From Diabrotica undecimpunctata (lineage: Eukaryota; Arthropoda; Insecta; Coleoptera; Chrysomelidae), in NCBI RefSeq assembly GCF_040954645.1, contig NC_092803.1:85360417-85424416 (forward strand): a stretch of 64,000 bases of DNA, written 5' to 3'. Positions 6,694-45,163 of this stretch are shown in pieces; positions within the stretch are counted from its first letter, which is position 1, and each line of letters starts with the position of its first letter. A program made the position numbers and the translations under genes. Under the pieces are notes generated by a model. That model saw only the letters and a list, made by a program, of their open reading frames with translations. It made no database searches and had not been told where the DNA came from.

Positions 6694-6780
6694 ACGTGCA
6701 GAAGGGACAAAAATAATTTTACCGCCAAGAATCTAAAGAACTTTTCTCAAATAAGTCAAGTACCTATCTGGCGAGAGAAT

Positions 6781-7213
6781 TGTAGTGAATTTATTTAACT
6801 GCTATGTCTTTATTCAATTTATAATGTCTTTATTAATTCTAATTTAATGTTCTTATCATAATTTACTAAAGGTTCAATATTTATAACACTTACGAATTTA
6901 ATTTATTTTTATTTATATTAATTTATCTTACAATAATTTATATATCCGAACGTAACAATTAAAATCGCGAGCGCGTCTTCAAAATAAACTAACTCCTTCA
7001 ATGAAAAATCCGTTATTATATATGAAAACACAACTGGCCTAGAATTCAGGAGAATCCCTCTGATTTATACTAGAAGGTAAATCCGGGTCATCGTCTGACC
7101 GGTTTTCTTTCAGGTTTCTGCCAGCTGCTAGAAAATCTCGTACAATCTACAACATATTAGTGAATAAAAATATGTTTACAGGTTTTTAATATGACTCATA
7201 TTTTTACGTAACA
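6781..7213 (-). repeat. 3' LTR of Gypsy copy 1 (433 bp)
   Basis: It is almost identical to 10444-10877. Differences by eye include GCGTCTTC/GCGCTTCTTC context changes near 6977, CATAAT/CTTAAT near 6856 and one extra A in the other copy. Confidence 0.92.
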
Positions 7214-7232
7214 TTGCCCCCCTCTCAAAAGA
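7214..7232 (-). promoter_or_regulatory. Polypurine tract of Gypsy copy 1
   Basis: In the sense direction CTTTTGAGAGGGGGGCAA runs directly up to the TGTTACG start of the 3' LTR. It would prime plus-strand DNA. Copy 2 has the equivalent tract. Confidence 0.8.
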
Positions 7233-10200
7233 TAGTTGTATAAAAATGACAAGGGACGGTTTTCTCTCCGCACCAGTAACTATGCGGATTGCTACAGACT
7301 AACACCTGGACTTCGGTGTCTTTAAAGATCTCCTCCACCATATTTCGGATAACCCTCCAATCTAATTGGCGGCACTCCAACTTTGGCATGGCTAACTTTT
7401 GCACGTCGGACTCTAGTACGTGCTCTCTCAATTGAAGTAAGGCTTCCCATACATCTCGGTAGGTAGGTTGGTCACGGGCAGTGTCTTTTGTTACCAGGTA
7501 GAAAAGGTAACGTGATGCATCTTGGAGTTGCCAACTGATGCATTGGAAATATCCGAGGACTCGTTCCTGTGCTCCTTGAATCTGAGACAGCACTCCTCCA
7601 ATTCCCACATTACTTGCATCCGTATCTAAGATGAACTCTCCTTCTGGCAGTGGATACCCTAAAATTGGTGCTGTTATTAAATGCTTTTTCAACGTCTCAA
7701 AGGCATTTTGGCAGTCTGTATCCCAGCGGTAATATCTTGCTTCCTCCGTAAGTCGTGTTAATGGCTTAGCGATATCTGCAAACTTCTTAATAAACCTCCG
7801 GTAGTAAGTACATAGTCCAAGAAAACTTCTCACTTGATGTTTGTCAGTTGGTTTTGGCCATTCCTTAATGGAATCGATTTTTCCCTTATCCACGGCCACT
7901 CCTTCTTTACTGACTATATGACCCAGATAATTGACTTTACCCTGAAATAGCTGGCACTTCTTGGGGTTTAGCATCAATTGGGCAGCTTTAAGTCGATTAA
8001 AAACGTTTTCTGAATTCTTCAAATGTTCTTCGAATGTCTCTCCCAAGACGATTATGTCATCTAAATAAACCAGGCATGTTTTCCAAGATAACCCTCTCAA
8101 CACATTTTCCATAAGCCTCTCAAATGTCGCAGGAGCATTACAGAGTCTAAATGGCATAACGTTGAATTGTCACAATCCAGATCCTGTGGTGAAGGCTGTC
8201 TTTTCTATATCTACTGGGTCCATTTCTACTTGCCAGTATCCAGACTTCAAATCCAAAGTAGAAAATAATTTACTTTCAGCCAATGTGTCCAATGTGTCAT
8301 CGATTCGAGGCAGAGGATAACTATCTTTCTTGGTAACGTTGTTCAGTAAACGGTAATCCACACAGAACCTCGTCGTTCCGTCTTTCTTCTTAACCAGGAC
8401 CACCGGAGAGACCCATGGGCTCGTAGAAGGTTCTATCACCCCGTCTTTCTTCATTTCCTGAACAATCGTTTCAGCTTCCTCTCTTTTCGCCTGCGGTAAT
8501 CGTCGAGCTGTTTGACGAATTGGCTTAGCATTACCAGTATCAATTTTATGCTTAACAGCGGTAGTTCTTCCCGTCTTTCCTTCTTTCGGTACGAAAAGAT
8601 CACGATACTGCCGAACAAATTCCCTTAATTTCCTTTTTTTAATCTGATTCAGAGACTGTCCTGCAACTGCAACCATTTGGTCGAATTTGTAGTTATTAGA
8701 TTTATATGGAATTATCAGATGTTGTCGTCTGACGGATTATGGATGTCACAGGTACACAAGTTCCTACCTTTGTCTCTTTCTTGATGGTCACTGGGTAGAC
8801 GTTGACATTGATAAGTCTCACAGGAATTTCTTTAGCCGAAGTCACCAATACCTTTCCAATTATGATTCCTCGGCCAACCTCGTCGTCATGGTTCCAAGGC
8901 TCCATCATAACAGGTGTTCCTTCGTCCACAATGCCCTGTAGCCGCGCTACTATGATCGTTTCACTTCTCGCAGGCACGACTGTATCTTCTTTAACGGCTG
9001 CTTGCATAGTGTTGTCATCAGGTGGATGGAGAAATACCTCTTCGTTGCCAACTTTGATTACCTTATTCTTAAAATCCAATTGGAATCCATGCATATTCAT
9101 TACGTCCATTCCTAATATAACATCCTCTTCGATGTCAGCAACTATAACAGTACGGACAAGCTTTTCTGCTCCAACTCCCAATTGTACCTGGATTTCTCCA
9201 TAAATGTTGGCATTTTCACCTGTAGCGGTCCGAAGTCGCAACCTCGTTGGTAACAGTTTCTTACGGCTGTTTATAACTGTCGGGCGTATAATGGTTCTGG
9301 TCGCTCCGGTATCCACCAACAACGTATGCTTTTTACCATTTATTTCTCCATCTACATATACACTATCTTCACGACATTTCAAAGAAGCTATTAGCATGAG
9401 AGGGTCTTTGGAAAAGTTTTGGGTCAAAGCTGCCCCCCTAAGGCTGACCCGTTCTAGTTTTCCTGGTGGTGAGTTTCTTGTTTTGATGGTCTTCTTTTTC
9501 TTGCATGTCATGCTTTTCATCATATTAATGAGCTGGCCAAGTTTATCTTCATCTCCTTCCTCTTTTACAGTCCTAGCTTTACTGTACCCGCCAGAGGCCT
9601 GCGTAGCTGACTCGTATTCGAGGGCGGCGGATAAGACATCAACCAGCGTCTTGTGACGAGCTAATCGCAGTGTTCTCTGCATTTCATGATCACGAAGACT
9701 ATCAATAAACGTTTGAACGGCCAACTTTTCCATCATGTCTTCGGGAGCTGTTGGATAAGCATATCGTACTAATCTGGCAATATCTACCTCATATTCTTGA
9801 AGAGCCTCATCTTTCTTTTTTCTTCGATTTTTAAGCTGTGACTGATATACATGCTCCAAATGTTCGTGACCATATCGCATATTTAACCTCTTCTTCAGTT
9901 GTTCGAAATCATCCGTCTCCTCTACGGCTATGGTCTGAAGCACATCTAAGGCATCTCCTCGAAGAGAGATAGTCAGGTTTACAGCCTTTTCTTTTTCAGA
10001 CCATCCATTCGCTCTTGCAGCTGATTCGAACTGTTTCATGTAGTTGATTTTAGAAACTTTCAAAATATCGTCAGAAACTTTGTTCTCTAATGATGCGATG
10101 TCACCAGAAACTTTTGAAATATCGCCAGAAACTTTGTTCTCCAATGATGCGATGTCACCAGAAACTTTCAAAATCGACGAGAGGACAGCATCATGTTTGT

Positions 10201-10352
10201 CTTCAAATATATGTTTCTGGATCTAAACCATCTTGCTCCAAAGCGTTCTTTAGTCGTTGGACTAACTCAGCCTTTTTCCCGGTAGAAGCTAATTCTCTGT
10301 CTTCGAGATATCTTCTTAAATTAGTTACTGTCAGCTCATAAATCGTCGTCAT
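7225..10352 (-). pseudogene. Gag-pol pseudogene of Gypsy copy 1
   Basis: The ATG is at 10352-10350 (MTTIYELTVTN), giving a SAP-like domain; a frameshift near 10215 breaks it. The heptad-like KVSGDIASLENK repeats follow, shortened and fused by a deletion to the capsid-like region (ORF 10171-8702, which also has protease LVDTGATRTII). A break near 8690 precedes the RT start (8676-8170); a stop near 8160 splits the RT, and the last frame (8157-7225) has YLDD and the RNase H start LDTDAS. It then jumps in frame from RNase H to the second half of the macrodomain (LQDASRYLFYLVTKD), removing about 2 kb including integrase. The CCCH finger is cut after its first Cys. It is defective. Confidence 0.9.
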
Positions 10353-10422
10353 TTTCACAATTTAAAAATATTCTCTTCGGAACAACACGTTATGATTGAT
10401 TACTATAAGTCTAATTTACTTT

Positions 10423-10441
10423 GATCCCACTTCTGACACCA
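10423..10441 (-). promoter_or_regulatory. Primer-binding site, tRNA-Leu type
   Basis: Two bases after the 5' LTR the sense strand reads TGGTGTCAGAAGTGGGATC, which is complementary to the CCA end and T-arm region expected of a eukaryotic tRNA-Leu. The assignment is from recall of tRNA-Leu 3' ends, not from a search. Confidence 0.65.
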
Positions 10442-10443
10442 TT

Positions 10444-10877
10444 TGTAGTGAATTTATTTAACTGCTATGTCTTTATTCAATTTATAATGTCTTTATTAAT
10501 TCTAATTTAATGTTCTTATCTTAATTTACTAAAGGTTCAATATTTATAACACTTACGAATTTAATTTATTTTTATTTATATTAATTTATCTTACAATAAT
10601 TTATATATCCGAACGTAACAATTAAAATCGCGAGCGCTTCTTCAAAATAAACTAACTCCTTCAATGAAAAATCCGTTATTATATATGAAAACACAACTGG
10701 CCTAGAATTCAGGAGAATCCCTCTGATTTATACTAGAAGGTAAATCCGGGTCATCGTCTGACCGGTTTTCTTTCAGGTTTCTGCCAGCTGCTAGAAAAAT
10801 CTCGTACAATCTACAACATATTAGTGAATAAAAACATGTTTACAGGTTTTTAATATGACTCATATTTTTACGTAACA
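10444..10877 (-). repeat. 5' LTR of Gypsy copy 1 (434 bp)
   Basis: It pairs with 6781-7213. It ends at the target duplication GAAT (10878-10881). Confidence 0.92.
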
Positions 10878-12744: not shown

Positions 12745-13058
12745 TGTTACGATAAATATACTGGCCTAACTTTTATGACTAATTATTCTGTTTTATTGTA
12801 GAAATTTCGGTGGAAGTCTAGATTCAAATTATGGTGAATTCTCCAACTTGATGTTCTCGACTATTCCAGTATATCAGGATTTCGTATATAAATACAACAT
12901 TTTTATATGGAGAGTTAGTTAATTCTGAACCCGCGCTCGCGAATTTGTTACGTACGGATATAATATATAAATTATTGTCAGATAAGTTAATATAAATAAA
13001 GAAATAAATTAAATCCGTAAGTGTTATAAATATTGAACCTTTTAATAAATTCACAACA
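12745..13058 (+). repeat. 5' LTR of Gypsy copy 2 (314 bp)
   Basis: It matches 18550-18863 throughout by eye. Its last ~170 bp (from GCGCTCGCGA) resemble the LTR of copy 1, while the first part does not. AATAAA-like signals occur near the end (ATAAATAAAGAAATAAATTAAA). Confidence 0.95.
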
Positions 13059-13060
13059 AA

Positions 13061-13079
13061 TGGTGTCAGAGTGAGATCG
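13061..13079 (+). promoter_or_regulatory. Primer-binding site of Gypsy copy 2
   Basis: TGGTGTCAGAGTGAGATCG begins two bases after the LTR, in the same place as in copy 1. The first 10 bases match the tRNA-Leu-type site of copy 1; the rest diverges, so the primer tRNA could differ. Confidence 0.6.
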
Positions 13080-13136
13080 AACATAAATTAGACTTATAAT
13101 AATAATACAAGTGAATACGTAAAATAAATTGTGAAA

Positions 13137-16100
13137 ATGGCTACGATTTATGAGCTCACAGTGACGAATTTAAGAAGACATCTCGAAGACAGAGAATTAG
13201 CTTCTACCGGAAAAAAGGCTGAGTTAGTCCAACGACTAAAGAACGCTTTGCTAGAAGAAGGACTAGATCCAGAAACTTATATATTTGAAGACAAGCATGA
13301 TGCTGTCCTCTCGTCGATTTCGAAAGTTTCTTCTGATGTAGCCAAAGTTTCCGGCGACATCGCATCATTGGAGAACAAAGTATCCGGCGACATCGCTTCT
13401 TTAGAAAGCAAAGTTTCTAACGAGATTTCTTCTCTGGAAAGCAAAGTTTCTGCTAACATCTCTAAAGTCACTTCAGAGATATCTGCTCTTGACGATAGAG
13501 TGTCTTCGTTAAAAAACCAAGTTGCTGCCGATATGTTGGCCTTCGAAGAAAAGATATGGAAAGAGATGGAAAGGAAGATGGAGGAAACAGGGACAGCAGA
13601 GAGAGGTAACAATCCGATTACAGTGGAGATAAAAGAAGACGAGACGAAATTTAAGTTGGAGACACGGCCGAAATTTGAAGGAAGTGGAGGTTCTATTCAT
13701 GTTAAAGTCCCAACTTTCGACGGAAAATCATCATGGAACAACTACATGAAACAGTTCGAATCAGCCGCAAGAGCAAATGGATGGTCTGAAAAAGAAAAGG
13801 CTGTAAACCTGACTATCGCTCTTCGAGGAGATGCCTTAGATGTGCTTCAGACCATAGCCGTAGAGGAGACCGATGATTTCGAACAACTGAAGAAGAGGTT
13901 AAATATGCGATATGGCCACGAACATTTGGAGCATGTATATCAGTCACAGCTTAAAAATCGTAGACAGAAGAAAGAGGAGGCTCTTCAAGAATATGAGGTA
14001 GATATTGCCAGATTAGTACGATATGCTTATCCAACAGCTCCCGAAGACATGATGGAAAAATTGGCCGTTCAAACGTTTATTGATGGTCTTCGTGATCATG
14101 AAATGCAGAGAACACTACGATTAGCTCGTCACAAGACGCTGGTTGATGTCTTATCCGCCGCCCTCGAATACGAGTCAGCTACGCAGGCCTCTGGCGGGTA
14201 CAGTAAAGTTAGGACTGTAAAAGAGGAAGGAGATGAAGATAAACTTGACCAGCTCTTTAATTTGATAAAAAGCATGACATGCAAGAAAACGAAGACCATA
14301 AAATCAAGAAACTCACCATCGGAAAAACCAGAACGAGTCGGCTTTAGGGGAGCAGCTTCGACCCGGAACTTTTCCAAAGACCCTCTTATACTAATAGCTT
14401 CTTTGAAATGTCGTGAAGATAGTGTATATGTAGATGGAGAAATAAATGGTAAAAGACATACGTTGTTGGTGGATACCGGAGCGACCAGAACCATTATACG
14501 CCCGACAGTTATAAACAGCCGAAAGAAACTGTTACCAACGAGGTTACGACTTCGGACCGCTACAGGTGAAAATGCCAACATTCATGGAGAAATCCAGGTA
14601 CAATTGGGAATTGGAGCAGAAAAGTTCGTCCATACTGTTATAGTTGCTGACATCGAAGAGGATGTTATATTAGGAATGGACGTAATGAATATGCATGGAT
14701 TCCAATTGGATTTTAAGAATAAGGTAATCAAAGTTGGCAACGAGGAGGTATTTCTCCATCCACATAATGACAACACTGTGCAAGCAGCCATTACAGAAGA
14801 TACAGTCGTGCCTGCGAGAAGCGAAACGATCATAGTAGCGCGGCTACAGGGACTTGTGGACGAAGGGAGACCTGTTATGATGGAGCCTTGGAACCACGAC
14901 GATGAGGTTGGCCGTGGAATCATAATTGGAAAGGAATTGGTGACTTCGGCTAAAGAAATTCCTGTGAGACTTATCAATGTCAACGACTACCCAGTGACCA
15001 TAAAGAAAGAGACAAAAGTAGGAACTTGTGTACCTGTGACATCCATAATCCGTCAGGCGACAACATCTGATAATTCCAACGACAAATTCGACCAAATGGT
15101 TGCAGTTGCAGGACAGTCTCTAAATCAGATGGAGAAAAGGAAATTAAGGGAATTTCTGCGGCAGTATCGTGATATTTTCGTACCGAAAGGAGGAAAGACG
15201 GGAAGAACTACCGTTGTTAAGCATAAAATTGATACTGGTAATGCTAAGCCAATTCGTCAAACAGCTCGACGATTACCACAGGCGAAGAGAGAGGAAGCTG
15301 AAACGATTGTTCAGGAAATGAAGAAAGACGGGGTGATAGAACCTTCTACGAGCCCATGGGTCTCTCCGGTGGTCCTGGTTAAGAAGAAAGACGGAACGAC
15401 GAGGTTCTGTGTGGATTACCGTTTGCTGAACAACGTTACCAAGAAAGATAGTTATCCTCTGCCTCGGATCGATGACACATTGGACACATTGGCTGGAAGT
15501 AAATTGTTTTCTACTTTAGATTTGAAGTCTGGATACTGGCAGGTAGAAATGGACCCAGTCGATAAAGAAAAGACAGCCTTCACCACAGGATCTGGATTGT
15601 GGCAATTCAACGTTATGCCATTTGGACTTTGTAATGCTCCTGCGACATTTGAGAGGCTTATGGAAAATGTGTTGAGAGGGTTATCTTGGAAAACATGCCT
15701 GGTTTATTTAGATGACATAATCGTCTTGGGGGAGACATTCGAAGATCATTTGAGGAATTTAGAAAACGTTTTTAATCGACTTAAAGCTGCCCAATTGATG
15801 TTAAACCCCAAGAAGTGCCAGCTATTTCAAGGTAAAGTCAATTATCTGGGTCATATAGTCAGTAAAGAAGGAGTGGCCGTGGATAAGGGAAAAATCGATT
15901 CCATTAAGGAATGGCCAAAACCAACTGACAAACATCAAGTGAGAAGTTTTCTTGGACTATGTACTTACTACCGGAGGTTTATTAAGAAGTTTGCAGATAT
16001 CGCTAAGCCATTAACGCGACTTACAGAGGAAGCAAGAGAATACCGCTGGGATATAGACTGCCAAAATGCCTTTGAAACGTTGAAAAAGCATTTAATAACA

Positions 16101-18560
16101 GCACCAATTTTGGGGTATCCACTGCCAGAAGGAGAGTTCATCTTAGATACGGATGCAAGTAATGTGGGAATTGGAGGAGTGCTGTCTCAGATTCAAGGAG
16201 GACAGGAACGAGTCCTCGGATATTTTAGTAAAGTTCTTTCAAAACCTGAGCGGAATTATTGCGTCACGAGAAGAGAACTTCTAGCAGTAGTTAAATCAGT
16301 AGAGCACTTCTATCAATACCTCTATGGAAGGAAGTTTTTAATCCGAACCGACCATGCCGCCCTTAAGTGGTTGATGCAGTTTAAGAATCCAGAGGGTCAG
16401 ATAGCCAGGTGGATCGAACGACTCCAAGAATACGATTTTAAGATTGAGCACCGAGCCGGAGTTAGCCACAGAAATGCTGATTCTCTTTCCAGAAGGCCAT
16501 GCCCCGCAGAGTGTTCCCACTGCAACAAAACGGAATCCAAGGAAGCAGCAGTGCTAAGAACGACGATTGTCAACGACGACTGGACGCCTACTAAGATAAG
16601 GGAAGAACAAGAGAGAGATCCAGTTATACAGAAAATCCGAAAATGGAAAGAGGAAAACCGTCGACCACCTTGGCAGGAAATATCAAACCTATGCTCAGTA
16701 GTTAAGACGTATTGGGCCCAGTGGGACTCATTTATCATCGAAGATGGCTTGCTCAAACGAGTCCTGGAAAATGATGACGGTTCAGAGAAAAGAAGACAGT
16801 TGGTGATCCCAAAGAGCAGAATAGCCGAAGTACTTCGTCAGTTACACGACAGTCCATCGGGAGGGCATTTTGGTGTAAGGAAAACCTTTCAGCGAATTCG
16901 GGAACGGTTTTATTGGATGAACAGTTCCGACGACGTAAAAGACTGGTGTAAGAAATGTACTATTTGTGCTACGAGTAACGGGCCTCACCGGAAAAGGAGA
17001 GCTCCTATGAGACAATATAATGTTGGAAGCCCGTTTGAAAGAATAGCTTTGGACATTGCAGGGCCATTTCCAGAAAGTGAAAATGGGGGCAAGTACATGT
17101 TGGTAGTAATGGATTACTTCACTAAGTGGGTCGAGATTTATGCACTTCCAGACCAGAAGGCCGCCACCGTTGCAGATAAGTTGATCCAAGAATATATCAA
17201 CCGATTTGGAGTGCCTTTGGAGATCCATAGTGACCAAGGCAGGAACTTTGAAAGTGATCTATTCCAAGGAATATGTGATAGACTAGGCATGAAGAAAACA
17301 AGAACTACCGCGTATCATCCGCAATCGGATGGTATGGTAGAACGAATGAATAGGACAGTTGGCAAGTATTTGACAAAGATGGTGTCCGATCATCAGCGAG
17401 ACTGGGACCAATACCTTCCGTTCTTCACAATGGCCTACAGATCTGCTGTTAACGAATCAACGGGCCAGACACCAGCCAGAGTCCTATTCGGACGCGAAAT
17501 GCGACTACCTTGTGATCTAGAATTTGGGTGTCGACCTGGAGAAGATGTAGCAGGTGAAGATTATGTGATCGAATTACGAAGAAGAATGGACGATGTACAT
17601 GAGTTGGTCCGTTCCCACCTTCAGATCGCTAGCGACCGAATGAAGAAACGGTACGATACACAAGCCGAAAAGGGTTGCTTTAAGAAGAACGACAAAGTAT
17701 GGCTGTATAATCCCAAGAAGCGAAAAGGTTGTTCTCCCAAATTGCAGCAGTTTTGGGAAGGTCCATACCTCATCATGGAGAAGATCAACGATGTCATCTA
17801 CCGAATAAGCAAGATTCCGAGGGGAAAGCCGATGATAGTACACCATAACCGGCTGGCGTCTTTCGAAGGTGACCACGACGTAGATGAAGAAGTGGAAGTA
17901 AACCAAGTCCAAGACGTGTCTGACCTCACGTTTGAGGAATTCATGGGTGCCTATGGAGGTACCGGTAAAGCAAGACATGGTGTTACCACTGAAGAAAAGC
18001 AAGATCTACTCGCGCTCCCCGATGACTACTCGCTGGCCCTCACCATCCCGGCCAGTATCAAAGACGCACCAGGGTTGGCATCCGTCTTTCGAAGGAAGTT
18101 TGGTCGAGTTGCAGAACTTCAATGCCAAGTGCCAGCTCCCGGTAAAACCTTGAAACTCCAAGATGCATCACGTTACCTTTTCTACCTGGTAACAAAAGAC
18201 ACTGCCCGTGACCAACCTACCTACCGAGATGTATGGGAAGCCTTACTTCAATTGAGAGGGCACGTACTAGAGTCCGACGTGCAAAAGTTAGCCATGCCAA
18301 AGTTGGAGTGCCGCCAATTAGATTGGAGGGTTATCCGAAATATGGTGGAGGAGATCTTTAAAGACACCGAAGTCCAGGTGTTAGTCTGTTGCAATCCGCA
18401 TAGTTACTGGTGCGGAGAGAAAACCGTCCCTTGTCATTTTTATACAACTGGAAGTTGTAAAAGAGGGTCCAGTTGCCGATACCAGCATACAGTTCCGGTT
18501 CCAGTCCCGACAAGGTTCCAGGAGGAACTATCTTTTAAGAGGGGGGCAATGTTACGATAA
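13137..18560 (+). CDS. Gag-pol polyprotein with SAP domain, TARG1-like macrodomain and CCCH finger
   Basis: A single frame of 1,807 codons encodes structural and enzymatic proteins for retrotransposition. I take the ATG at 13137; an upstream GTG at 13131 is in frame but unlikely. Order: SAP-like DNA-binding fold (about 3-45, LRRHLEDRELASTGKKAELV); coiled coil of 11-residue repeats (about 58-150); capsid-like gag (about 185-350), with no CCHC knuckle seen; protease DTGAT (D446); RT with YLDD (D859, D860); RNase H TDAS (D1006); integrase zinc motif (H1237, H1244, C1274, C1277) and D1306-D1366-E1402 (D-x35-E), with a GPY module near 1542. Unusually it then has a macrodomain (about 1623-1752) resembling ADP-ribose hydrolase TARG1/OARD1 and a C-x7-C-x5-C-x3-H finger (C1766-H1784). 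There is no frameshift between gag and pol. The stop lies 11 bases into the 3' LTR. Confidence 0.93.
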   Translation: MATIYELTVTNLRRHLEDRELASTGKKAELVQRLKNALLEEGLDPETYIFEDKHDAVLSSISKVSSDVAKVSGDIASLENKVSGDIASLESKVSNEISSLESKVSANISKVTSEISALDDRVSSLKNQVAADMLAFEEKIWKEMERKMEETGTAERGNNPITVEIKEDETKFKLETRPKFEGSGGSIHVKVPTFDGKSSWNNYMKQFESAARANGWSEKEKAVNLTIALRGDALDVLQTIAVEETDDFEQLKKRLNMRYGHEHLEHVYQSQLKNRRQKKEEALQEYEVDIARLVRYAYPTAPEDMMEKLAVQTFIDGLRDHEMQRTLRLARHKTLVDVLSAALEYESATQASGGYSKVRTVKEEGDEDKLDQLFNLIKSMTCKKTKTIKSRNSPSEKPERVGFRGAASTRNFSKDPLILIASLKCREDSVYVDGEINGKRHTLLVDTGATRTIIRPTVINSRKKLLPTRLRLRTATGENANIHGEIQVQLGIGAEKFVHTVIVADIEEDVILGMDVMNMHGFQLDFKNKVIKVGNEEVFLHPHNDNTVQAAITEDTVVPARSETIIVARLQGLVDEGRPVMMEPWNHDDEVGRGIIIGKELVTSAKEIPVRLINVNDYPVTIKKETKVGTCVPVTSIIRQATTSDNSNDKFDQMVAVAGQSLNQMEKRKLREFLRQYRDIFVPKGGKTGRTTVVKHKIDTGNAKPIRQTARRLPQAKREEAETIVQEMKKDGVIEPSTSPWVSPVVLVKKKDGTTRFCVDYRLLNNVTKKDSYPLPRIDDTLDTLAGSKLFSTLDLKSGYWQVEMDPVDKEKTAFTTGSGLWQFNVMPFGLCNAPATFERLMENVLRGLSWKTCLVYLDDIIVLGETFEDHLRNLENVFNRLKAAQLMLNPKKCQLFQGKVNYLGHIVSKEGVAVDKGKIDSIKEWPKPTDKHQVRSFLGLCTYYRRFIKKFADIAKPLTRLTEEAREYRWDIDCQNAFETLKKHLITAPILGYPLPEGEFILDTDASNVGIGGVLSQIQGGQERVLGYFSKVLSKPERNYCVTRRELLAVVKSVEHFYQYLYGRKFLIRTDHAALKWLMQFKNPEGQIARWIERLQEYDFKIEHRAGVSHRNADSLSRRPCPAECSHCNKTESKEAAVLRTTIVNDDWTPTKIREEQERDPVIQKIRKWKEENRRPPWQEISNLCSVVKTYWAQWDSFIIEDGLLKRVLENDDGSEKRRQLVIPKSRIAEVLRQLHDSPSGGHFGVRKTFQRIRERFYWMNSSDDVKDWCKKCTICATSNGPHRKRRAPMRQYNVGSPFERIALDIAGPFPESENGGKYMLVVMDYFTKWVEIYALPDQKAATVADKLIQEYINRFGVPLEIHSDQGRNFESDLFQGICDRLGMKKTRTTAYHPQSDGMVERMNRTVGKYLTKMVSDHQRDWDQYLPFFTMAYRSAVNESTGQTPARVLFGREMRLPCDLEFGCRPGEDVAGEDYVIELRRRMDDVHELVRSHLQIASDRMKKRYDTQAEKGCFKKNDKVWLYNPKKRKGCSPKLQQFWEGPYLIMEKINDVIYRISKIPRGKPMIVHHNRLASFEGDHDVDEEVEVNQVQDVSDLTFEEFMGAYGGTGKARHGVTTEEKQDLLALPDDYSLALTIPASIKDAPGLASVFRRKFGRVAELQCQVPAPGKTLKLQDASRYLFYLVTKDTARDQPTYRDVWEALLQLRGHVLESDVQKLAMPKLECRQLDWRVIRNMVEEIFKDTEVQVLVCCNPHSYWCGEKTVPCHFYTTGSCKRGSSCRYQHTVPVPVPTRFQEELSFKRGAMLR
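18531..18549 (+). promoter_or_regulatory. Polypurine tract inside the end of the ORF
   Basis: CTTTTAAGAGGGGGGCAA precedes the 3' LTR start at 18550. The gag-pol frame reads through it (residues KRGAM), so the tract is both coding and the plus-strand primer. Confidence 0.8.
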
Positions 18561-18863
18561 ATATACTGGCCTAACTTTTATGACTAATTATTCTGTTTTA
18601 TTGTAGAAATTTCGGTGGAAGTCTAGATTCAAATTATGGTGAATTCTCCAACTTGATGTTCTCGACTATTCCAGTATATCAGGATTTCGTATATAAATAC
18701 AACATTTTTATATGGAGAGTTAGTTAATTCTGAACCCGCGCTCGCGAATTTGTTACGTACGGATATAATATATAAATTATTGTCAGATAAGTTAATATAA
18801 ATAAAGAAATAAATTAAATCCGTAAGTGTTATAAATATTGAACCTTTTAATAAATTCACAACA
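18550..18863 (+). repeat. 3' LTR of Gypsy copy 2 (314 bp)
   Basis: It is identical by eye to the 5' LTR and contains the gag-pol stop codon TAA at 18558-18560. Confidence 0.95.
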
Positions 18864-19322
18864 ATATACAGGACCTTAATAAGACCAGTTTTGATATATG
18901 GGGCTGAAACGTGGATCTTATCTCAAAATGATAAAAGACTTCTTGGTATTTTTGAGAGAAAAATTCTTAGAAAGATTTTTGGGGCCGTAAATGAAAATGG
19001 GCTATGGCGTCGAAGATACAACTTTGAACTGTATCAGTTATACACCGATCCAGATATTGTGAAATTCGTTAAAGTGCAGAGACTTAGATGGGCTGGACAC
19101 ATTGCTAGGATGTCAGATCACGAATACACGAAGAGATTAACATTTTCAAAACCAGAGGGCACAAGAAGCAGAGGACGACCACGAATGAGATGGATTGATG
19201 ATGTGGAAGAAGACCTACAGATTCTAGGGGTTAGAAGATGGAGGGAAGTTGCCAGGAATCGACAGGAGTGGCGACTTCTTTGTGAGCAGGCCAAGATCCA
19301 CAACGGATTGTCGAGCCACTTA
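18864..19322 (+). pseudogene. LINE reverse transcriptase, C-terminal part
   Basis: It continues the same protein after the Gypsy insertion: LIRPVLIYGAETW, then LRWAGHIARM, GRPRMRWIDDVEEDL and a Trp/Arg-rich end, the usual C-terminus of RTE/CR1-like ORF2 proteins in insects. It ends at a TGA at about 19323. Confidence 0.85.
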
Positions 19323-24169: not shown

Positions 24170-24990
24170 ATCATTTTAGGCTCCATATATCCTGATTAGA
24201 CCTATAGGACCTGAGATACGCAACTAAGGCTCTTTTGACATAACATATATAGGAGCAAAGATATATACCTAAGGTCCTTTTGACGTGTTGATGTATTTGA
24301 TTTCTACGTCGTAGTATTCTATTGGTTAAATGTTACCATTTGAGGTACTGTACGTCACGATTGGGCTAATAAAAACGAAGATACGTAACTAAGGCCCTTT
24401 TAATATTTTGCTGTATTTGATTTCTATCTCATTGTATTCTATTAGTTAAATTCTATCATTTGAGGTATCGTACGTCACGATTGGACTAATAGGACCGAAG
24501 ATACATAACTAAGGCCATTTTGACATGCTACTTTATTTAATTTTTATACCTCATTGTATTTTATTTGTTAAATCCTTTCATTTGAGGTACTGTACGTCAT
24601 GATTGGACTAATAGAACTAAAGATACACAACTAAGGCCCTTTTGACATTGTTCTGTATTTGATTTTTGTATTCCATTGTATTCTCTATGTTAAATCCTAT
24701 CATTAGAGGTACTATACGTCACGATTGGACTAATAGGACCGAAGATACGTGACTACGGCCCTTTTGACATGTTGCTGTATTTAATTTTTTTATTTCATTG
24801 TTTTCAATTCGTTAAATCCTGTCATTTGAGATACTGTACGTCACGATTGGACTTATAGAAACGAAGATATATAATTAAGGCCTTTTTGACATGCTGCTAT
24901 ATTTGATTTTTCTGTCTTATTGTATTTTATTGGTTAAATCCTATCATTTGAGGGGCTGTACGTCGCGACTGGACCAATTGGAGCGAAGAT
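24170..24990. repeat. Tandem satellite, unit about 121 bp, roughly 6-7 copies
   Basis: The marker block AAGGCCCTTTTGAC, with variants, recurs at about 24225, 24265, 24392, 24512, 24633, 24755 and 24876. Between markers each unit contains TGTATTTGATTT, ATTGTATTCTAT, GTTAAATCCTATCATTTGAG, GTACGTCACGATTGGACTAA and GAAGATAC in the same order. Units differ by point changes. The first copies are partial. No coding potential. Confidence 0.92.
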
Positions 24991-25065
24991 ACCATAGGTA
25001 GTTGCAATATATCATATCCCGTTACTTTTAACCAACCATGATGCCGGAATGATTTGTGGATGAAA

Positions 25066-26066: not shown

Positions 26067-26971
26067 CTAAGTTGTTCCTCCGTAAGTTAAGAACACTTAG
26101 AAATATTTATCTTGCTTTTTCTATTTTATATTTTGATTTGTACTTTGTCTAAGTAGTTCTTTCCGGTAAGTCAAAGAACTCTTAGAAATATTTCTCTGAA
26201 TATTTGACTTGTTATTTTAATTGTGCGTCTAAGCCATTCTTTTCCGGTAAGTCAAAAGAACACTTAGAAATATTTTCATAATCATTGTTGCATTATTATT
26301 TTCGATATTTTATTTAAGATATTTTCTTCCTTAAGTTAAGAAAATACTTAATACATTTGTCTCTTTCATTTTCTATTTTATGCTAAGTTGTTTCTTCCGT
26401 AAGTCAAGAAACACTTAGCAATATTTCCACATCTTTTCTGTATTTGATTTTTCGTATTTGTAAGTCGTTTCTCCCGTAAGTCAAGAAACACTTGTAAATA
26501 TTTGTATTCTTATTTTTGCATTTTATTTTCTTTCTATTCTATATTACAAGTCGTTTCTTCCGTAAGTCAAGAAACACTTGTAAATATTTATATTCTTGTA
26601 TTGCATATTTGATTCTCTTGTTGTTTTTCTGTTCTAAGTTGTTTCTTCCGTAAGTCAAGAAACACTTAGACATATTTTCACATATTGTTTTATATTTACT
26701 TATTTCATTTGTTTATATTCCTCTCTTAAGTTGTTTCTTCCGTAAGTCAAGAAACACTTAAGAACATTTCTGCATTCTTTTACCTTGTGTATTTTTACTC
26801 ATATTTCTGCATTTTTCTATTCTTTGATCTTGTACATTTTTACTTTTCATTCTAAGTTGTTTCTTCCGTAAGTCAAGAAACACTTAGAAACATATTCTTT
26901 GCACTACATTTATCATACCATTTTATTTTATTGTTTACCAAGTTATTCCTTCCGTAAGTCAAGGAATACTT
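26067..26971 (+). repeat. Array of 11 covarying stem-loops with conserved loop CCGTAAGTC
   Basis: Hairpins lie at 26067-26100, 26149-26185, 26229-26267, 26314-26351, 26381-26420, 26462-26493, 26544-26583, 26633-26670, 26724-26763, 26850-26889 and 26940-26971. The usual form is an outer stem (CTAAGT/ACTTAG), an unpaired T, an inner stem (GTTTCTT/AAGAAAC) and loop CCGTAAGTC. Variants keep pairing: TATTCCTT/AAGGAATA, TATTTTCTT/AAGAAAATA and AGTTCTTT/AAAGAACT inside; TTACAAGT/ACTTGTAA, TCTTAAGT/ACTTAAGA and TGCTAAGT/ACTTAGCA outside. The first hairpin has a shorter, imperfect inner stem. Spacers of 40-90 bp are unrelated, AT-rich and often begin AATATTT. Not a CRISPR: the repeats are palindromic, variable and eukaryotic. 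Confidence 0.9.
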
Positions 26972-27119
26972 AGATTATTTTACCTGTTCTGTTTTCCATT
27001 TTTGATCTGTTATTTTGTAACTGTTCCTTGGAACCGTTACCTGTAACAGATACTTGTCGCTGTAACGGTTATTCTGTAACGGCAACAGTACTGACCCATT
27101 TCACTAGCGACAAACGAAG

Positions 27120-27211
27120 ATGGTAAACACCCGTTCCAATTCCGGAGACAGGAAAAAGTCCGAAGAGCCGGCGATGGGTCCTACAGGCCCAAATGCCCCC
27201 TCTCGGCAACA
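27120..27211 (+). CDS. Gag-like N-terminus, 31 codons, cut at the insert end
   Basis: An ATG at 27120 opens a frame reading MVNTRSNSGDRKKSEEP, a start seen in gag proteins of several LTR-element families. The frame belongs to the inserted unit only up to 27211; the following residues come from the family A LTR and are not part of the protein. In a complete element the frame would presumably continue past the LTR. It has no function here. Confidence 0.5.
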
Positions 27212-27482
27212 ACATAATATTAGATATGAAAAGTATTTGGTTATTTTAATAAGTTATATACTAGAGAATTTTATAAAAATATATTTATGTGAGGGCATTT
27301 TTAAGAAATTAGCATATAATAATTGTAAAAAGTTGTATTTTAGTAATTATAATGTGGTAGATATATTTAAGTGAGCCATGTGACTAGGCAACCAACTATA
27401 CATATGAATGACAGACAGATATATATACTCTCCAAGTGACATTTTAAATAATTAGGAAGTAAAGATAGATTTTGAAGAAAAA

Positions 27483-28427
27483 ATGGTAACTTTGGAAGGG
27501 CAAATAATTAAATTTATGCAGAAAGATGAGGTGGAAGAAGGAATAAGAGTTGATAGGATATTATTAAAAGGAAATAATGATATTTGTGAAGAAGAAATAT
27601 ATTTTGATGATAGGGAAATGTCCCAAAAGAATGTAAAGAATAATTATTGTAGTGAATATTTAAGGAATGGAAATTTTAAGCAGATGGATGCCTACAAGGT
27701 GGAGTGCGTAAAATTGGAAGCAAGGAATAATGAGTACATAATGAAGAATAATTTTATTTGTAAAGAAGATATGATAAAAGTTTTAAATTGCCCTGAAGAA
27801 TATAAATCAATAGTCGTTTCCATATTGCAGCAACACAAGGGACTTGTCAATAAAGAAAATAGAATTGCACAAAATTATATCCATAGTATAAAAGTTAAAG
27901 AAGAAAAAGATTTTAAAACAAAATCATACCCAATACCATATAAATACAGAGAAGAAGTAAACAGAACGATTAATAATATGTTAGAAGACGGAATACTAGG
28001 AAGAATTACAGGAATGTCATTTTTCACTAAAATCGATTTACAGCATAGTTTCTGGTTAATACCTTTAGAAAGAAAAAGTAGACAGTATACAGAATTTCAG
28101 ATAGATGGAGTAGTATATCAATTCAAAGTAGTACCGTTTGGACTTCAATCATCTTGCAGTGCTCTATGTAGATGTCTTCATGATATTTTGGATCAATATG
28201 AACATTTTGTAATTCACTACATTGATGATATATTAATTTTTTCTAAAACGGCTGAAGATCATGAGAAACACCTAAAAATTATAATAAACAAATTAGACAA
28301 AGTTGGACTAAAAATAAATCAAGAAAAATGTACATTTTTTCAAAAAGAAGTGATATATTTAGGTTATAAACTTAACACTAATTATAATTACACTAACAGT
28401 TTACTGATAGATCCATTTCATAGATAG
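27483..28427 (+). pseudogene. Gypsy pol fragment (RT) of the family A element
   Basis: The N-terminal 150 residues resemble the pol segment before RT (YIHSIKVKEEKDFKTKSYPI, VNRTINNMLEDGILGR). The frame then jumps from the first RT block straight to FFTKIDLQHSFWLI, so the block with the conserved Lys/Asp-Gly and Arg is deleted in frame. FGLQSS and YIDDILIFSK (catalytic Asp pair) and FFQKEVIYLGY follow, and the frame ends soon after. RNase H, integrase and protease are absent. Inactive. Confidence 0.85.
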
Positions 28428-28866
28428 ATGATAGATTTAATTATTGTGAATCAATTTGACATCATACTTGTTGTCTTATACATATGGAAATTATTTTGTA
28501 CCCTAAAAATCATAATTTGGAGTTAGACACAAAATTGATAATATAATTGCTATAAATGTCTTTCTAATATAATAAAGTGTAAAACTTACCAATTCATATG
28601 GATGAAAGCCTGTTGAATGGAAATAATTCCTAGGTTTTGTCTATAAATAAACATAACACAATAATAGATGATTAGATTATATATGTTTATTTTCTCATAT
28701 TATAGCCTCCATTGTTCTATTTGACATGACAGTTTGACATAGACAGCGAACAGAGGTGTACTTAATAGAACACATTTTAAATAAGAAATTAAATTATTGG
28801 ACAAGAAAATTAATATTTAAAAAAATAATAAGTAAATTATTTATTTTAAATATTATTTTGGGGTAT
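28428..28866 (+). other. Residual internal region of the family A element
   Basis: AT-rich sequence between the pol fragment and the 3' LTR with no domain recognised. A short G-run (GGGG at about 28859-28863) lies just before the LTR where a purine tract is expected. Confidence 0.45.
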
Positions 28867-30225
28867 TGATATGATTAGTGTTTAAAGAAAATAATTTATA
28901 AATTATATACTACATAATATTAGATATGAAAAGTATTTGGTTATTTTAATAAGTTATATACTAGAGAATTTTATAAAAATATATTTATGTGAGGGCATTT
29001 TTAAGAAATTAGCATATAATAATTGTAAAAAGTTGTATTTTAGTAATTATAATGTGGTAGATATATTTAAGTGAGCCATGTGACTAGGCAACCAACTATA
29101 CATGTGAATGACAGACAGATATATATATACTCTCCAAGTGACATTTTAAATAATTAGGAATATAAAGTGGGGTTATAATAATAATGTTAGTTTAAAATGT
29201 TTAATTTATATATATTTACTGATTTAAGTGTATATTCTGATCTGAAAAGCCTAAATGTCAACAAAATTATTAATAGAAAAGTATGGAATTCTCTAGATCA
29301 CCGGAAATGGCCTTGTTTGCGAAATGGTTTGTTCCAGAAAATTCAGACATGTATTTAATAGAACAAATGGAACATGATTTCTTACCAGATGGTTCTGGAA
29401 CATCCAAAAAGATATAAATACCCGGTGATTTGGATTCAGAAGTCAGTCAGAAAGTTTAGTAAGAAAGTCCATTCAGTTAGTCAATCAGTTATGAGTTTTT
29501 TAGTATGAAAATTAGTTAGAGGCAGTAAATCAGTTACAATTGTTCAATATAGTGAGTTAAATCAATATTAAGAAACAGTATAAAGAAAATAATATTGAAG
29601 ATTAAAAATTATGTTATGTATAAATGATAATTGGATAATGGAAGAAGTATTAATTGAATATTAAAATTAAATAATATATGTATTTGGTGATTGGATATTG
29701 GTATATAGAAAAGAAGAATAAATATAAATGCTGTTTGCTGGTTTGCTTGGTGGTTTATAAATGCTGTGAAGAAAAATATCTTAAATTGGTGGAAGCTGAT
29801 AATTGGAAAAAGTAATTTCATAAAAACAAGGATAACCGAAGCTGAGAAGAAGACATTTGAGTGGTGATTATAATCTATATAGTGGAAAACAGTTCATTTA
29901 GGCATTCAGTGACAGAAAGGTACAAAAATTTTGTTAATATAATTTAGTTAGTGTCATAACAATTTCAATTTTGAAGATAGTTTGTATAAATTTTACATTA
30001 TCTATAGAATTTAATTAGTTTCATAAGAATTTCAATTTAAAGATAGTTTATTTTAAATTTACATTAGCTAGTTTAGATATATATGTGTGTTTCATAGTAG
30101 ATCTAATAAAGATAATTTAAAAAAGTACTTACAAACTAATTCTTTGAGAACCGCGATAAAAACCCTATATATTATATTATTAAAAATACTCATTGCTCAT
30201 CATTCAATAACAATACATCATAACA
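28867..30225 (+). repeat. 3' LTR of family A element (1,359 bp)
   Basis: It starts TGATATGATTAG and ends CATAACA against (TA)n. It aligns with 1-910 (reverse complement) and with the interrupted 5' LTR. Confidence 0.85.
29332..29447 (+). promoter_or_regulatory. LTR promoter with heat-shock-element-like sites
   Basis: TATAAATA at 29413-29420 is followed 30 nt later by TCAGTCAG (29443 on), an arthropod initiator. Upstream, TTCCAGAAAATTC (29332-29344) is a complete three-unit TTCnnGAAnnTTC heat-shock element, and TTCTGGAACATCC (29393-29405), close to the TATA box, has two good units and an imperfect third. The copy at 1-910 has comparable sites. Confidence 0.6.
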
Positions 30226-43015: not shown

Positions 43016-43270
43016 TGTTAGAATATCCAACATAAAAAGTGGATGTTGTTCTATATGAAGTGACATTGTTGACAGTGCAATGAGTAATGTCATAAATAGG
43101 TCATAAACTACTGTCAGTCAAGTTTTGTATTGTTCTGTATGTAAGAAGGAATACAGTCTAATTGTTGATGACCAGACGTTTATTGGTGCATATTTCTTAA
43201 AGTACATATTTCCTTGCCTCTTGATGTCTTCAAACTAGATGGAGGACTTCACCTAACTTAAATTATAACA
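43016..43270 (+). repeat. 5' LTR of the copia element
   Basis: 255 bp, partner at 44662-44916. Confidence 0.92.
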
Positions 43271-43287
43271 GGTTTTGGGCCCAGTCC
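43271..43287 (+). promoter_or_regulatory. Copia-type primer site (half initiator tRNA-Met)
   Basis: GGTTTTGGGCCCAGTCC follows the LTR directly. Drosophila copia is known to prime with a 5' half-molecule of initiator tRNA-Met cut in the anticodon loop, using GGTTATGGGCCCAGTCC-like sequence; this site differs from that by one base. Confidence 0.75.
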
Positions 43288-43360
43288 ACGTGTGAACTGT
43301 GAACAGATTAGGTTCGTACTTCATTCAGTTTTGTTTGTTGTTATTCTCGGTGAATAAAAT

Positions 43361-43882
43361 ATGGCGACCAGCAATAACGATTATAAAATTCAAGTTGACA
43401 AACTCGAGGGTCATGAAGACTGGGCAAAGTGGAAATGGCACGTTTTGATGTTATTACGTTCGTATGCACTTGAAGACATTGTAAACGGTATGTGTAAGTG
43501 TCCTGAGGTTAGTGAAGATTCAACTTCAGCGGAAATACAGAAGCATCAGCAATGGTTAAAAGACGATGCGAAAGCGGCAAGTTTGTTAGCAGGTACGCTA
43601 GGAAAAACTGTTGCCGAGCTCGTGTTGACGTGTACTCACGCTAGTGAAATATGGGACAAATTGCGTGCGAGATGTGAACGTAGCAGTACGCAACGGTTAA
43701 ACATGTTAATTGAAGCCTTTTTTAGAGTCCAACGTGATGAAAAAGAAGATATTAGTACACATGTTGCGAAGTTGCAGAAACTGTTTGTAGATTTAAATGA
43801 TGAACTGCAGAAGCATGATGAAAATGTTTTATCCGAAAGAATGTTAAAGAAAGATTTGGTCATCAGCATAAGCAGCATGTAA
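43361..43882 (+). CDS. Copia Gag fragment
   Basis: The ATG at 43361 opens a 173-codon frame (MATSNNDYKIQVDKLEGHED, WAKWKWHVLMLLRS) typical of copia Gag, with the UBN2-like block SEIWDKLRARCERSSTQRLN and ISTHVAKLQKLFVDLN. It ends soon after KKDLVISISSM, before the zinc knuckle, because a deletion joins it (out of frame) to integrase. A truncated capsid could be made but would lack nucleic-acid binding by the knuckle. Confidence 0.85.
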   Translation: MATSNNDYKIQVDKLEGHEDWAKWKWHVLMLLRSYALEDIVNGMCKCPEVSEDSTSAEIQKHQQWLKDDAKAASLLAGTLGKTVAELVLTCTHASEIWDKLRARCERSSTQRLNMLIEAFFRVQRDEKEDISTHVAKLQKLFVDLNDELQKHDENVLSERMLKKDLVISISSM

Positions 43883-43890
43883 AGAAGGTA

Positions 43891-44667
43891 TTGAAGAAAA
43901 TTAATATAGACATTGATGGGTGCAAAGAAAGCTTTTGCGATGGATGTGCAATTGGAAAAATGCATAGATTGCCATTCAAATCTAGGATCAATCGACCACA
44001 AGTCACTGGTGAGCAGATCCATGCAGATGTGAATGGGCCCATGTCTATAGAATCACTGGAAAAAGCATGTTATTATGTATATTTTAAAGATGATTTTAGT
44101 AAGTTTCGGAAAGTTTTCTTTATGAAACACAAAAGTGAGGTATGTACTTTCTTAGAACAATTTTTAAATGAAGCTAGTACAAATGGCCATGTAGTAAAGC
44201 AACTGAGATGCGATGGAGGGAGAGAGTTTAGCAATAAAAAGGTATCTGAACTTCTTGCGAAGAGAGGTATAGAGCATTGTATCACTCCGCCCTATACACC
44301 TCAGCAGAATGGTGTTGCTGAAAGGGAAAACCGCACCATTGTAGAGTGCGCACGTTCCATGTTAAACACATGTAAGTTGTCCAAACAATTGTGGGCAGAA
44401 GCATGCAATACTGCAGTGTACATTCTGAATCGTACAGGAAAGTCATCAATTGAAAGTAAAAGTCCCTATGAATTGTGGTATGGAAAGCCAATTGGAAGTT
44501 TGAAACATTTAAGAATATTTGGCACTGAATGTTATGTTCACGTTAACAAGAATCTTCGCAGTAAATTTGATGAGAAGGTGATACATGGTTATTTAGTTGG
44601 TTATGTGAATGACAGGGATGGTCTATTATTTAGCTTATCTACTTTTCATGTTGAGGGAGAGTGTTAG
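43891..44667 (+). pseudogene. Copia integrase fragment
   Basis: The frame begins in the integrase zinc region (CDGCAIGKMHRLPF), then the DDE core: Asp in IHADVNGPM, Asp in LRCDGGREF, Glu in NGVAERENRT, followed by KSPYELWYGKPIGSLKHLRI. It ends just after HVEGEC, reading through the purine tract into the 3' LTR. It has no start codon of its own (the first Met is internal) and no RT. Confidence 0.85.
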
Positions 44668-44916
44668 AATATCCAACATAAAAAGTGGATGTTGTTCTAT
44701 ATGAAGTGACATTGTTGACAGTGCAATGAGTAATGTCATAAATAGGTCATAAACTACTGCCAGTCAAGTTTTGTATTGTTCTGTATGTAAGAAGGAATAA
44801 AGTCTAATTGTTGATGACCAGACGTTTATTGGTGCATATTCCCTAAAGTACATATTTCCTTGCCTCTTGATGTCTTCAAACTAGATAGAGGACTTCACCT
44901 AACTTAAATTATAACA
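44662..44916 (+). repeat. 3' LTR of the copia element
   Basis: 255 bp; preceded by the purine tract TTGAGGGAGAG (44651-44661). Confidence 0.92.
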
Positions 44917-45163
44917 GACCAGTCGCCAATAATTTGTCATTATAGGTGGATGTTTAAAGCGTTAACAGTGTAGATCTTTAATTTATTGTTGTAAATAATA
45001 TCTGTTTATATTCCCGCAGAAAAAGTTCAAATAATACAATGGTTTTATGGTGGTAATTCTGGACAAAAGTGTGTAGATTTATTTTCTGCGTTTTTTTGAG
45101 AGGAGACCAATTCTTTGCGTATAGTCAATTCTTAACCCTCTATTGTATATCCCTACATTGTAT

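Follow-up and report, generated by a model that had tools for sequence, protein, structure and literature searches.

A 64,000-nucleotide stretch of the Diabrotica undecimpunctata genome (contig NC_092803.1), henceforth referred to as the window, contains a Ty3/Gypsy long terminal repeat (LTR) retrotransposon whose polyprotein ends in a TARG1/OARD1-type macrodomain followed by a CCCH zinc finger. This arrangement had been proposed in a preliminary description and was confirmed here. TARG1 normally strips ADP-ribose tags from proteins or nucleic acids. Sequence, structural model and phylogenetic tree indicate that the macrodomain was most likely captured once from a TARG1 homologue of an insect, probably a beetle, and fused in frame behind the integrase, and the earlier proposal of a captured TARG1-type ADP-ribose module adjoining the finger is borne out by the sequence match, the structural match and the tree.

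The macrodomain and the element that carries it

Pfam misses the domain between the integrase C-terminus and the finger. The same stretch matches human TARG1/OARD1 (C6orf130) at E = 1e-21, and a profile built from ten relatives matches TARG1 at E = 4e-36; the preliminary description had held that a lack of any macrodomain match in profile searches would speak against it, and such a match is present. The domain has the macrodomain fold and its nearest solved relative is TARG1, as expected of the TARG1/ALC1-like class. DarG structures are the next best structural match, while the NCBIfam DarG equivalog scored 28.3 bits against a cut-off of 250 and does not assign the domain to that family. Chance similarity to TARG1 was excluded by the sequence match together with the structural match. 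The domain resembles human TARG1 in fold, motif order, Lys84, Asp20 and Gly43, and differs from it in being fused to a retroelement integrase and, in the window family, in the absence of Gly123 and Asp125. The TARG1 numbering agrees with Lys84 and Asp125 as printed in papers.

The finger claimed to follow the macrodomain was recovered as PF00642 (28.8 bits, gathering cut-off 20.5) with C-x-C-x-C-x3-H spacing. Among solved structures it is weakly closest to the CPSF4 fingers (E = 1.4e-5), and because it is of the CCCH type and weakly nearest to CPSF4, it may be guessed to bind RNA.

The element spans 12745–18864 and contains one open reading frame (ORF), 13131–18560, between two LTRs that are identical over 315 bases; a likely 4-base ATAT target duplication was read by eye. 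The LTRs, the order protease, reverse transcriptase (RT), RNase H, integrase, and the p58_C/GPY module identify it as a Ty3/Gypsy LTR retrotransposon. A Pfam scan of the Gag-Pol ORF was carried out in three pieces. No chromodomain of the chromovirus kind was found in the C-terminal pieces, and the macrodomain occupies the place after the integrase. No env domain, as in errantivirus-like elements, was found in the three pieces, and there is no space for an envelope ORF behind pol because the ORF runs into the 3' LTR, where its stop codon lies. The features are listed below by window position, together with the macrodomain fragment of an older relative (Copy 1).

12745..13059 (+), 5' LTR, no difference from the 3' LTR in 315 bases; TG...CA terminus near 13058
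13131..18560 (+), single Gag-Pol ORF, 1809 codons from GTG 13131; ATG at 13137
13155..13250 (+), SAP domain at the N-terminus of Gag (Pfam PF02037, 28.3 bits)
13812..14096 (+), Gag capsid (Retrotrans_gag, domain scan); this copy has no CCHC knuckle downstream
14430..14690 (+), aspartyl protease (PF13975)
15378..15860 (+), reverse transcriptase (PF00078)
16125..16433 (+), RNase H (PF17917)
16806..16979 (+), integrase H2C2 zinc-binding domain (PF17921)
17034..17321 (+), integrase core (PF00665)
17760..17858 (+), integrase C-terminal (p58_C/GPY-like) module (PF22938)
17997..18386 (+), TARG1/OARD1-type macrodomain (match to human TARG1, structural comparison and tree)
18195..18197 (+), Lys aligned with the TARG1 catalytic Lys84 (LVTK in the window; alignment)
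18303..18326 (+), shortened phosphate loop and following residues (ECRQLDW); TARG1 Gly123 and Asp125 absent
18420..18488 (+), CCCH zinc finger (PF00642)
18550..18864 (+), 3' LTR (repeat comparison)
7234..7536 (-), macrodomain fragment of Copy 1, finger cut

Origin and distribution of the domain

Three protein searches, the largest of which contributed the best 120 of 200 proteins, yielded 125 proteins; 15 without a domain stretch of at least 105 residues were left out of a first tree of 117 rows. There, the domains from elements make up one clade (63 rows, support 100/98). Its sister, with support 98/88, consists of two beetle proteins, Aromia P0066 and Rhynchophorus P0068, in which Macro is the only Pfam domain. 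In Diabrotica, a host TARG1-like gene (L071; G000:C3:100933771-100934703, minus strand) was the only full-span match among 118 scored; its ORF of 760 residues has the Lys and GCGLD intact, and it has an unlabelled C-terminal region in common with Aromia P0066. A second tree was built from 118 rows (the 117 and the host gene) after removal of 45 that were near-copies or formed long branches, fly and snail duplicates among them. It used 34 rows of the clade, and these hold together at 100/99, beside three beetle host-like genes at 95/89. The element domains are nested among TARG1 homologues in a tree that does not include the ALC1, MacroD and PARG classes, and its 137 alignment columns are few for the finer forks.

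P0069, which lies outside the element clade, has an aspartyl protease after its TARG1-type macrodomain. The same order was seen by eye in P0117, and no protease was found in P0088. Constraining P0069, P0088 and P0117 to group with the Gypsy clade was rejected in the second tree (approximately unbiased (AU) test, p = 0.013), a result weakened because the three-row group was named after the first tree had been seen; P0117 does not join P0069 and P0088 in the second tree. P0069 and P0117 represent a second, probably separate, association of a TARG1-type macrodomain with a retroelement.

Similar domains were found, among the matches listed, in the beetles Diabrotica virgifera, Psylliodes, Gonioctena, Leptinotarsa, Acanthoscelides, Aromia, Molorchus, Exocentrus, Brassicogethes, Pyrocoelia and Holotrichia and in the hemipterans Nilaparvata and Macrosteles. 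Many of these relatives bear integrase or protease domains, and the CCCH finger follows the macrodomain in most known members. The element clade also takes in short gene models from Diabrotica, Leptinotarsa, Nilaparvata and Macrosteles that bear the name OARD1-like. The hemipteran rows could each be an element or a gene; an integrase C-terminus is present in P0049, the neighbour of the Nilaparvata rows. Three clade members (P0049, P0058 and P0059) combine an integrase C-terminus with a common ending after the domain and no CCCH finger, and P0049 and P0059 group with the Nilaparvata and Macrosteles rows. Public OARD1-like or chimeric gene models such as P0007, P0010, P0011, P0057 and P0063 resemble pieces of elements, P0011 being a tachykinin-receptor model joined to an element-like piece. 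In viral contigs, one pattern search gave no match and others gave 17 and 3 pattern matches, with no confirmed relative among them. Twelve phage records (H1–H12) hold similar proteins, e.g. Bacillus phage G gp437 at 32% identity, which makes phages further carriers of TARG1-like domains.

The 1.74 Gb Diabrotica genome was searched with the window domain, and all 150 scored matches (best 150 of 5,412 candidates) were identical in protein over 143 residues; this copy number is a lower bound because only 150 of the candidates were scored. A Nilaparvata query (150 scored of 5,032 candidates) recovered a second family, referred to as F2. In the 30 loci read, its domain is 41–44% identical to that of the window element's family, F1, and a whole or partial CCCH finger comes after it. 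At least 150 copies with an identical domain and the relatives in other insects support the domain as a family trait, as had been claimed. Copy 1, which had been offered as proof of that claim, does not serve as such: it is an older deleted relative (6780–10877, minus strand) in which the RT/RNase H region is fused directly to a later part of the macrodomain, and the finger is cut. Its LTRs are about 81% like those of the main element over 177 bases.

Copies chosen by open-frame length were also compared in Gag. A CCHC knuckle, with Gag and Pol in separate frames, is present in 3/3 such F1 copies (L051–L053) and 3/3 F2 copies (L055, L068, L069), and an intact knuckle is missing from 8/8 fused Gag-Pol copies of F1 (L056–L063, together with the window copy; knuckle region at window 14250–14320) and 5/5 of F2 (L054, L064–L067). 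Gag-Pol in a single ORF without the knuckle probably has two or more origins, because the sequence of the loss is not the same in F1 and F2. Splicing was dropped as the cause of the fusion, since no GT-AG borders were seen by eye at the missing stretch and the difference in F2 is of another kind. Among the 150 scored F1 copies, 47 have open frames of at least 1,780 codons and 65 have open frames of about 1,400–1,440.

Catalytic residues and the possible role of the domain

The window domain retains the catalytic Lys84 of TARG1, and the loop that holds Asp125 in TARG1 (GCGLD) is two residues shorter, with the Asp lost; the preliminary description had read the kept Lys and the shorter loop correctly. 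Its suggestion that the Asp might have shifted to D1729 was not supported, and D1729 was rejected as a substitute, the position being Lys in P0001 and Asn in P0004. The two Diabrotica families have lost different residues. F1 has kept the Lys (in all seven F1-type tree rows) and has lost Gly123 and Asp125, along with the two-residue deletion; F2 has kept the Asp and carries Ala for Gly123 and Arg for Lys84. Across the clade, Asp125 is present in 51 of 63 rows, two others ending or being gapped at that position, and Gly123 is kept in 53. Both Lys84 and Asp125 are kept in 50 of the 63 rows, Aromia P0002 and Nilaparvata P0007 among them, against 53 of 54 rows outside the clade.

The domain core, Lys84 and Asp20 are kept in F1. 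Five of the seven F1-type rows were compared at 34 near-invariant columns (P0005 and P0006 were left out, and a column was counted as changed if any row differed, some changes being conservative), and 21 columns were unchanged. The loop-less form also occurs in the relatives P0001, P0003 and P0004 at 58–72% identity. The macrodomains of F1 and F2 share 43% identity, with nonsynonymous divergence (dN) of 0.53 and synonymous divergence (dS) too high to estimate. Because the loop-less form persists in these relatives and dN is at this level, the F1 domain looks weakened or repurposed rather than decayed. Macrodomain dN/dS within F2 was about 0.2 to 0.9 in nine of ten chosen pairs, with no synonymous change in the tenth; these values were set aside because the copies had been picked by protein similarity and some upstream stretches have stops or frame slips.

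On balance we favour, with moderate confidence, an ancestral ADP-ribose eraser that in the F1 family of Diabrotica has been repurposed as a binder or possibly a Lys-only remover. Carried by the integrase or the virus-like particle, such an eraser would strip mono-ADP-ribose that host enzymes attach to the element's proteins, to chromatin factors or to the ends of nucleic acids and would protect integrase, cDNA ends or element chromatin, while the CCCH finger would keep the module near RNA or DNA. The removal of ADP-ribose, as originally proposed, is plausible for the clade because 50 of 63 rows keep both catalytic residues, and doubtful in the window family because nine of 13 otherwise near-invariant columns of the pocket loops are changed in at least one of the five rows. 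Action against PARP-type restriction, action at DNA ends and RNA binding, as originally proposed, are putative roles. F1 is most likely not an efficient protein ADP-ribose hydrolase any longer, because the Asp and the phosphate-loop glycine are gone while the fold and the Lys are kept; it would instead have been repurposed as a binder, or perhaps acts with the Lys alone to take ADP-ribose off nucleic acids, as DarG does.

Several observations weigh against this assignment. Under a rule combining a Pfam list, a linker motif and a finger motif, 14 of the 63 clade rows carry no element label, all of them short gene models. F2 has Arg at the Lys position. The F1-type changes fall in 9 of 13 near-invariant pocket-loop columns against 4 of 21 elsewhere, in a grouping made after the list had been seen, and could mean that ADP-ribose binding has also been lost. 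The upstream, mainly integrase stretch (482 codons) is more conserved between F1 and F2 than the macrodomain, at 60% identity and dN 0.33. Finally, no report was found that ADP-ribosylation by an insect host acts on elements of this kind, a matter at which no search was aimed.

That two families in one genome lost different catalytic residues, with the core conserved, would also be explained if the macrodomain were a structural or protein-interaction module only, a fold that after capture came to serve as the C-terminal tail of integrase instead of a chromodomain and that has nothing to do with ADP-ribose in any of the families. We regard this as rather unlikely; a pure scaffold is not expected to keep both catalytic residues in 50 of 63 rows and Gly123 in 53. 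LTR elements can take up host sequence at random, and the 150 scored copies are identical in the domain stretch and hence young, as would fit a functionless host fragment that was transduced by chance and has been copied with the element. Relatives from Hemiptera and several beetle families, however, have the domain in open, recognisable form, the dyad is largely conserved, and nonsynonymous change is limited where synonymous change is too high to estimate, so that a mere passenger is very improbable. The DarG macrodomain keeps the Lys without the Asp, as stated in PMC9411070, and SCO6735 works without either residue (PMC9411070 and PMC5087735). The F1 domain, with its Lys in 7/7 tree rows, its Asp lost, DarG structures next after TARG1 and its place behind the integrase, could likewise be a Lys-only remover of ADP-ribose from DNA or RNA, guarding element cDNA ends at integration; the shortened phosphate loop, its lost glycine and the drift of other pocket columns make this improbable as a specific account.

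The ancestral eraser can be set in a wider and more speculative frame. SIRT6 silences L1 by mono-ADP-ribosylating KAP1, according to PMC4695847. Insects might similarly use ADP-ribosylation against retrotransposons, with a beetle Gypsy lineage having stolen the host eraser and tethered it to integrase and an RNA-binding finger, the Diabrotica copies having lost catalysis in two ways (Asp in F1, Lys in F2) to become a reader or decoy, and another retroelement group having taken a TARG1 domain independently. We put this forward tentatively, as a possibility with the odds against it.

Other repeats, known systems and implications

The window also contains a Copia-type element with 98% similar terminal repeats (43016–44917), an RT ORF between 98% similar 224-base repeats (27209–29132), another RT ORF (59956–62115, minus strand), a 122-base tandem array (24301–25031) and seven copies of an 86-base unit (26376–27016).

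Viral macrodomains (alphavirus nsP3 and others), which we take to belong to a different macrodomain class, are also carried by a different type of element. The DarG antitoxin macrodomain is like F1 in its kept Lys and lost Asp, whereas it is a bacterial toxin-antitoxin partner and shares 19–25% identity over the structural alignment. Epsilon-like endogenous retroviruses of fish are likewise retroelements bearing a macro domain (Basta et al. 2009, as cited in PMC4977317); theirs is described as lying in additional retroviral ORFs, whereas the beetle TARG1-type domain is fused behind the Gypsy integrase with a CCCH finger. Bdelloid rotifer LTR retrotransposons carry extra enzymatic ORFs (dUTPase, DEDDy exonuclease and GDSL esterase; PMC5408684) and are alike in gaining enzyme modules but differ in which enzymes; the terms ADP-ribose and macro are absent from the main text of PMC5408684. 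A literature search, whose coverage left most subscription journals outside, found no TARG1-type macrodomain in an LTR retrotransposon or Gypsy element.

The element clade may explain the OARD1-like genes resembling element pieces in the gene sets of Diabrotica, Leptinotarsa and perhaps Nilaparvata and Macrosteles. It offers ready-made probes on both sides, namely the host TARG1 homologue L071, element enzymes that look active from their residues, and two families with different catalytic losses. If the dyad-intact relatives are active, they would be a natural pointer to ADP-ribosylation-based control of retrotransposons in insects.
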